A stretch of 25,063 nt of DNA from a virus: the IMG/VR virus record IMGVR_UViG_3300035157_000301, positions 1-25,063 of that record; one strand, given 5' to 3'. Shown one piece after another: positions 2,767 through 3,707 of this stretch. A program made the translations under genes and the position numbers. Position 1 is the stretch's first letter. Each line of letters opens with the position of its first letter. Below the pieces are notes generated by a model. That model was given only the letters and a program-made list of their open reading frames with translations. It was not told the origin of the DNA and did not search any database.

Positions 2767-2774
2767 TATTTATT
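2767..2774 (-). promoter_or_regulatory. Late-promoter-like AATAAATA before petF
   Basis: A seven-of-eight match on the minus strand that includes the petE stop codon; 21 nt separate it from the petF ATG. A second near match, TATAAATG, overlaps the petF start codon itself and is too close to serve that gene. It would allow petF-pebS-pcyA to be transcribed separately from petE. Confidence 0.4.
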
Positions 2775-3129
2775 CTACATGAATAACGCCTTTCATGCCA
2801 GCCCCTGCATGAGGTGCACATGAGAAATTATAATCTCCTGCATCTGCAAAAGTAATTTCCTGTGTCTCACCTGGACTAAACATTAATGACTCCCTTGATA
2901 GATCTGCTCTACCATCAACAATGATGTTGTGAGGGGGTAAGGCATTATTGATGAATGTAACTGTATCTCCAGCAGAAATAGTCACTTCACTTGGTTCAAA
3001 GACTAGGTTACCTTCGTAACCCATCTGTATATCAACAGCGTATGCTTTCGCTGCTAGTGTCATTGATAAAAACAATGACGTTAACATAATAGTTAATCTG
3101 GACATCCACCACATAATTTCGTGTTTCAT
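2770..3129 (-). CDS. petE: Plastocyanin (blue copper protein)
   Basis: A lumenal copper protein that carries electrons from cytochrome b6f (or cyanophage-modified donors) to photosystem I. Numbered from the ATG at 3129: a signal peptide with a hydrophobic core at about residues 11-27 ending AAKAYA (likely cleavage after residue 31), then a compact cupredoxin domain. The copper ligands are visible: His67 (PPHNIIV), Cys104, His107 and Met112 ([13 protein letters not shown]), with the usual C-X2-H-X4-M spacing. The mature part is about 88 residues, slightly shorter than the usual 97 or more. The start at 3129 is preferred because it forms an ATGA overlap with the upstream 55-residue gene; 3105 (MSRLTIM) is an alternative, and an upstream non-ATG start at 3150 is unlikely. 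Confidence 0.93.
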
Positions 3130-3293
3130 AATTCGATACCCATCGTGCAATAGTCAATAAAATGAGGATGCTCCCTTAGTCCAGGGACATCCTCTTTTGA
3201 ATTCTGTATTGCTTCGTAGGCATCTTGGGCGTACTCACATATTTCATGATGTTCTCGGTTTGAATCGTGGTAACCAACCGTGTAGTGGGACAT
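3126..3293 (-). CDS. Small protein, 55 aa, function unknown
   Basis: Begins [20 protein letters not shown] and ends just inside petE by an ATGA overlap. It is soluble, rich in His and acidic residues ([23 protein letters not shown]), with two cysteines and several histidines that could bind a metal, although no standard motif fits. The frame is open upstream to 3392, but that extension is a run of Arg and Lys made by reading the neighbouring 3334-3474 gene out of frame, so the ATG at 3293 is chosen. A late-promoter-like AATAAATA lies 37 nt upstream of the start. Small proteins of this type occur in other cyanomyoviruses as far as I recall; no function is known to me. Confidence 0.72.
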
Positions 3294-3330
3294 GATAGTT
3301 TCAACTCCACTAAGTCTCAAATGACGTAAG

Positions 3331-3338
3331 TATTTATT
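3331..3338 (-). promoter_or_regulatory. Late-promoter-like AATAAATA before the 55-aa gene and petE
   Basis: A seven-of-eight match on the minus strand overlapping the stop of the lysine-rich small gene; 37 nt lie between it and the ATG at 3293. It could start a transcript for the 55-residue protein and the coupled petE. Confidence 0.4.
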
Positions 3339-3474
3339 CCTGTTTCTTCTTCTTTTCGATTCTTTTTGTCTCTTTCCTAACCTGCTTGGCATAGTATACT
3401 TCCTGCGGTGTATACCAATCAGGATGTTCCTTTGCTCTCTTTAATAATAACTTAGCCGCCTTCTTATTCTTCAA
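3334..3474 (-). CDS. Lysine-rich small protein with a non-ATG start
   Basis: A stop-free frame between the TAA at 3336-3334 and an upstream stop at 3510-3508 with no ATG. It reads convincingly as protein: KNKKAAKLLLKRAKEHP, then WYTPQEVYYAKQVRKET, then a basic tail ending KKKKQE. It contains no ATG or GTG; the only common start is TTG at 3474-3472, which overlaps the TGA of the preceding 78-residue gene as TTGA, copying the ATGA coupling used elsewhere in this cassette. That gives 46 residues. Alternatives are initiation at ATC (3492) or a +1/-1 shift from the upstream gene. An exact TATAAATA lies about 34 nt upstream. Function unknown; basic and probably helical. Confidence 0.55.
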   Translation of the reverse strand: MKNKKAAKLLLKRAKEHPDWYTPQEVYYAKQVRKETKRIEKKKKQE

Positions 3475-3707
3475 CCGTTGATATTCTGCGATGGTGCTCT
3501 GAAGTACTTATTTATAACCTCAACCTGATCATGATACCTTGCTATCTTATCTAACTCAACTCCAATTGCTTCTGTTATATCAGAGTGCTCTCCGATACCT
3601 ACAGGATTCTCAAGATAAACATTAACGTTCACCTTATGCTTCTCAATCTCACCCTGAGCATGTGCTAGGACTGCTCTGATTAATTGTTCTCTCATGTGTA
3701 GTGCCAT
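3471..3707 (-). CDS. Conserved-looking cyanophage protein, 78 aa, function unknown
   Basis: A small soluble protein, MALHMREQLIRAVLAHAQ and onward, with a mostly helical, amphipathic composition (EIEKHKVNVNVYLENP; LDKIARYHDQVEVINKYF) and a Gly/His-rich loop VGIGEHSDITEAI in the middle. No catalytic motif or membrane segment is recognisable. The ATG at 3707 follows the upstream gene's stop by 2 nt; a second ATG at 3695 is possible. Its 3' end contains an exact late-promoter sequence in coding DNA and a TTGA overlap with the next frame. I recall similar proteins in other T4-like cyanophages, always without an assigned role. Confidence 0.72.
   Translation of the reverse strand: MALHMREQLIRAVLAHAQGEIEKHKVNVNVYLENPVGIGEHSDITEAIGVELDKIARYHDQVEVINKYFRAPSQNING
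3509..3516 (-). promoter_or_regulatory. Late promoter, exact TATAAATA, inside a coding region
   Basis: An exact match on the minus strand inside the last codons of the 78-residue gene (GTTATAAATAAG, encoding VINK). It is 34 nt upstream of the TTG at 3474 and would give transcripts covering the small genes, petE, petF, pebS and pcyA. A chance match in AT-rich DNA is possible. Confidence 0.5.

Follow-up and report, generated by a model that had tools for sequence, protein, structure and literature searches.

Four-nucleotide overlaps between a stop codon and the next start are the commonest overlaps in prokaryotes and have been linked to termination-reinitiation (in the part of PMC10666635 available to us). 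Overlaps of the type (A/G/T)TGA arise wherever the start codon has an A after it, and TTG, at 3%, is used least among the three common starts, according to the available part of PMC3887535. With regard to late transcription, the portions of the literature at hand give NATAAATA as the cyanophage late motif (PMC2984593) and place TATAAATA at -13 to -6 in T4 (PMC1524935).

The locus described here brings together an overlap and a late-type motif of these kinds. It lies in the window, i.e., the whole stretch of 25,063 nucleotides of virus DNA that was analysed, and comprises the following features:

3471..3707, minus strand: upstream gene of 78 aa, phrog_1811 (PHROG E 2.6e-34, the profile spanning residues 5-71)
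3509..3516, minus strand: TATAAATA, late-promoter-like, inside the 3'-terminal part of phrog_1811 and 35-42 nt ahead of the TTG (family placement)
3471..3474, minus strand: TTGA overlap of the small-gene start TTG and the upstream-gene stop TGA (sequence; coupled loci)
3334..3474, minus strand: predicted gene of a 46-aa basic protein, phrog_14921, from TTG 3474-3472 to TAA 3336-3334 (PHROG, relatives, pN/pS)
3331..3338, minus strand: AATAAATA, late-promoter-like, including the TAA stop of the small gene and preceding the next gene (NATAAATA at the stop in coupled loci)
3126..3293, minus strand: next gene, 55 aa (MSHYTV...), phrog_8866 (PHROG E 1.4e-29 over residues 1-54)

The minus-strand frame that ends at 3334 is open for 57 codons, from 3507 to the stop at 3334-3336, and its translation, read from the window sequence, is VLQSTIAEYQRLKNKKAAKLLLKRAKEHPDWYTPQEVYYAKQVRKETKRIEKKKKQE. 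It contains no ATG, no GTG and a single TTG, at 3474-3472, and is closed upstream by an in-frame TAA (3510-3508), which overlaps the putative promoter TATAAATA. The stop of the 78-aa open reading frame at 3471-3707 is the TGA at 3473-3471, so that the tetranucleotide TTGA (3474-3471) is common to both genes. The first-pass annotation had drawn attention to a frame devoid of ATG and GTG, whose sole TTG overlaps the previous TGA, and to an exact late promoter in front of it; the sequence bears out both observations, TATAAATA being exact at 3516-3509 on the minus strand.

On sequence evidence, we regard the frame ending at 3334 as a real gene, and the virus carrying it is a T4-like cyanophage, i.e., a marine cyanobacterial virus. 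The same annotation had called the product a convincing basic protein, an assessment upheld by the PHROG search, in which the protein matches phrog_14921 with an E of 1.9e-12 over profile positions 5-47 of 52, and by relatives at 71 viral loci found in one scan of viral contigs (the profile scan gave 424 relatives, the best 80 of which were retained). Substitutions downstream of the TTG obey the small-gene frame in the loci that share the overlap: pN/pS is 0.34 across the 25 distinct loci, and in the same 23 ungapped sequences it is 0.33 in the small-gene frame vs 1.22 and 1.31 in the other two. Between the window and its nearest relative, L075 (which is one contig with L001), there are 8 synonymous changes over 23.5 sites and 4 non-synonymous changes over 111.5 sites. 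Searches of the small protein against Pfam and NCBIfam gave no useful match. The AlphaFold2 model has two helices with a mean pLDDT of 93.6, and the net charge, counted by hand, is about +10. From this charge and the modelled fold one might guess that the partner of the protein is a nucleic acid or another protein; a 45-residue two-helix hairpin is not diagnostic.

The gene that follows is the 55-aa MSHYTV protein starting at 3293. A longer, 88-aa ATG open reading frame (3126-3392) overlaps the small gene in another frame; we rejected it as a gene, since it is an upstream over-extension whose conserved part is the 55-aa protein, and the annotation of P-RSM6 has the 55-aa form. Farther along, a plastocyanin gene was recorded at 2770-3150 by DNA match to annotated petE genes, and the next open reading frame after it (2458-2745) is presumably ferredoxin-like, a name we give it from its sequence.

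The start of the small gene, as read from sequence comparison, is TTG 3474, and it is the relatives that fix it. Among the matches listed, 25 of the 73 distinct loci containing the upstream gene have the overlap, hereafter the coupled loci. In 11 of these 25, an in-frame stop lies one codon upstream of the TTG or GTG, and in all 25 the frame, followed back from the start to the first in-frame stop, holds no other ATG, GTG or TTG. The start codon of the window aligns with the starts of ATG-started phrog_14921 members (column 1 of the seed alignment, whose first residue was set as Met). A census of the family, which took as the start the candidate closest to column 1 of the profile, gave 97 ATG, 31 TTG and 6 GTG starts in 134 distinct loci among the best matches listed, counts in which TTG is possibly over-represented because the lists were drawn up by similarity to the window and its relatives. 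A few distant family members start away from the aligned position. Where the gene lies in contexts other than the overlap with phrog_1811, its aligned first codon is mostly ATG (among the matches listed). Thus, the alignment of homologues proposed in the first-pass annotation finds the frame conserved, with an ATG at the aligned position in most relatives elsewhere.

Within the coupled loci the 4-nt overlap of the TGA stop with the next start is conserved across all 25 distinct members, as TTGA in 23 and GTGA in two and never with ATG (among the matches listed). TTGA occurs here because a TTG start is followed by a codon beginning with A where the upstream frame stops. Among the ATG-started loci listed, 76 of 97 have ATGA, mostly without a long upstream frame ending there. 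Departures from the arrangement are found in L093, which has a TAA upstream, retains TTG and has no overlap, and in L116, L118 and L119, in which an ATG start lies inside a longer, 8-nt overlap. Selection against ATG at the overlap was entertained and dropped, for a missing A is also seen elsewhere in the upstream gene: of 54 third positions that could take a synonymous A, 6 are without A in every one of these 25 loci, and the lack of ATGA is therefore not significant. A start-codon tree of 128 rows (L092, L096, L101, L121, L138 and L153 were dropped from the 134 as distant) implies 12 changes between ATG and non-ATG; it is poorly resolved, with 13 of 110 inner branches starred.

Two other origins of the protein had been proposed alongside a rare TTG start, namely a programmed frameshift out of the 78-residue gene and a hidden start upstream; the TTG start overlapping the stop is what the homologues support, and neither alternative survives the comparison. 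A -1 frameshift towards the 3' end of the gene for the 78-residue protein would yield a fusion of both proteins, and the overlap of the two frames, with the small-gene frame of the window open for 11 codons upstream of the TTG, leaves room for it. In the 11 of 25 distinct coupled loci mentioned above, however, the in-frame stop one codon before the start shuts the overlap, and because the frame is closed there a slip would be confined to the last sense codon before the TGA (GGT, TCT, GAG and others). The overlap is accordingly not open in both frames in all members, and inspection by eye revealed no slippery heptamer or run at that last sense codon. L093 and loci of the L116 type, moreover, alter the spacing or use ATG. 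Between 118 upstream-gene frames and 199 small-gene frames, duplicates included, no stop-to-stop frame is shared; since no frame joins the small protein to the 78-residue phrog_1811 protein, a programmed fusion is unsupported, and we consider it most improbable. The same stops bear on a longer protein or a non-canonical start farther upstream. The window would permit such a start, as its frame is open to 3507 and has a single ATC six codons ahead of the TTG, but the 11 stops split that region from the protein, neither ATC nor ATA occurs there in four of the remaining 14 coupled loci, the match to the PHROG profile sets in around the TTG (profile position 5), and the upstream letters are accounted for by the 78-aa gene's own frame. 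This reading, too, retains only the slightest probability. In-frame stops in relatives and the complete lack of fused frames thus rule out both for practical purposes. The two outcomes that had been named in advance as counting against a separate gene, loss of conservation and fusion of the frames, were both absent.

In our opinion, then, this is very probably, on present sequence comparisons, a small late gene of an ordinary kind, carried by a T4-like cyanophage and read from TTG 3474. Its candidate late promoter draws its support from the relatives and not from the window count: TATAAATA was found twice in the window vs a mean of 1.73 in shuffles, and by count it is uninformative for that reason. 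Among the family loci listed, the start is preceded at 20-55 nt by NATAAATA in 71 of 134, by contrast with 0.65% at random positions of the same loci. The motif, both at 3509-3516 of the window and in the family, lies ahead of the gene in coding orientation and is conserved, the exact form TATAAATA being present in 14 of the 25 coupled loci and not exact in the other 11. All five ATAAATA cores of the window are on the minus strand, which is the strand of the genes discussed. Minus-strand sites were recorded in the window at 2774, 3338, 3516, 5753 and 16433; the loci compared are related and do not form an independent sample.

Within the upstream gene, TATAAATA covers the codons V-I-N-K of a VINKYF stretch. 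Of 32 loci with the small gene directly next, 21 have it at these codons, vs none of 41 without that gene (Fisher 1.2e-10; the 32 include L115 and L123, contigs that end just past the upstream gene, where the small gene is unverifiable). On a tree of 70 loci, which omits L115, L123 and L072, only 1 to 3 independent pairs fall on supported branches, a number with which significance is unreachable for the association of TATAAATA with the gene. The comparison is therefore suggestive of a promoter written into codons and tied to the presence of the small gene.

A related observation concerns the other end of the gene, where its TAA lies in or adjoins NATAAATA in every one of the 24 coupled loci whose sequence extends far enough; this copy is likely the late promoter of the next gene.

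As to how the TTG would be reached, both initiation routes and the activity of the promoter are what we infer from this arrangement. On a read-through mRNA, ribosomes finishing the 78-aa protein at the TGA would re-initiate at the overlapping TTG, a route that is plausible. An mRNA from the late promoter would, with the T4 spacing of -13 to -6, begin near 3503, about 29 nt before the TTG, and direct initiation would therefore be needed on it, the ribosome starting at the TTG from a short, unstructured leader. The region of the start shows no RNA structure beyond that of shuffles (z 0.69). It may be that direct initiation on the late-promoter mRNA is the only route and that TTGA is incidental, the upstream gene having simply run on as far as the next TGA. 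Small genes behind other genes often keep a late-type motif, often without a long overlapping frame; L093 retains its TTG despite a TAA stop before it; and NTGA arises whenever A follows a start codon (PMC3887535, in its available part). Against this, no Shine-Dalgarno-like motif precedes the TTG of the window, and 25 distinct loci preserve the 4-nt overlap, a configuration that the accessible text of PMC10666635 links to coupling. We regard direct initiation alone as a real possibility, though one we lean against. A switch between two modes, with low, coupled expression from the read-through mRNA and late expression from the gene's own short-leader mRNA, strikes us as rather unlikely; it is built on the weak TTG/GTG start and the late promoter in synonymous codons of the upstream gene. 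Among the papers listed for cyanophage and ribosome profiling, none, judging by title, is on cyanophage translation.

Translation from TTG 3474 has a bearing on annotation. Homologues that start with ATG are annotated, as established by tblastn and translation, in Bellamy (gp69) and S-SM2 (SSM2_053). A phrog_14921-like gene with a TTG start in P-SSM7 (GU071103.1 180152-180244, L236) has no annotated feature, and one with a GTG start and TATAAATA upstream in SynMITS9220M01 (MT408532.1 37973-38035, L238) is likewise unannotated. The earlier expectation that standard rules would miss such genes thus holds true for two isolate genomes; the comparison covers four isolates, too few for a rate. Because these TTG and GTG homologues are unannotated, counts of small late genes in abundant marine phages may be too low for those with non-ATG starts. 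In P-RSM6 the small gene is absent, and the MSHYTV gene comes immediately after the phrog_1811 homologue. A tblastn match in Syn19 was rejected as a family member, its translation being unlike phrog_14921. Comparison has settled the question of the start site and exposed a concrete gap in annotation; aside from that gap, compact phage genomes typically show arrangements of this kind.

Set beside the described systems, the small gene is an ordinary member of a known family, phrog_14921, with a TTG start and a classical four-base overlap. Its protein agrees with the family in length and sequence, whereas the annotated homologues start with ATG and the window gene with TTG, and the window gene differs further by its 4-nt overlap with phrog_1811. 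As in the four-base (A/G/T)TGA overlaps treated in the available parts of PMC3887535 and PMC10666635, the TGA of the window shares two bases with the next start; the start used here, TTG, is the least frequent of the three common ones, and the coupling is putative. The window likewise resembles the T4-type cyanophage late promoters, as far as they are covered by the part of PMC2984593 at hand, in carrying, 35-42 nt ahead of the small-gene start, an exact TATAAATA on the coding strand; it differs from them in that this putative promoter sits inside the upstream coding sequence.
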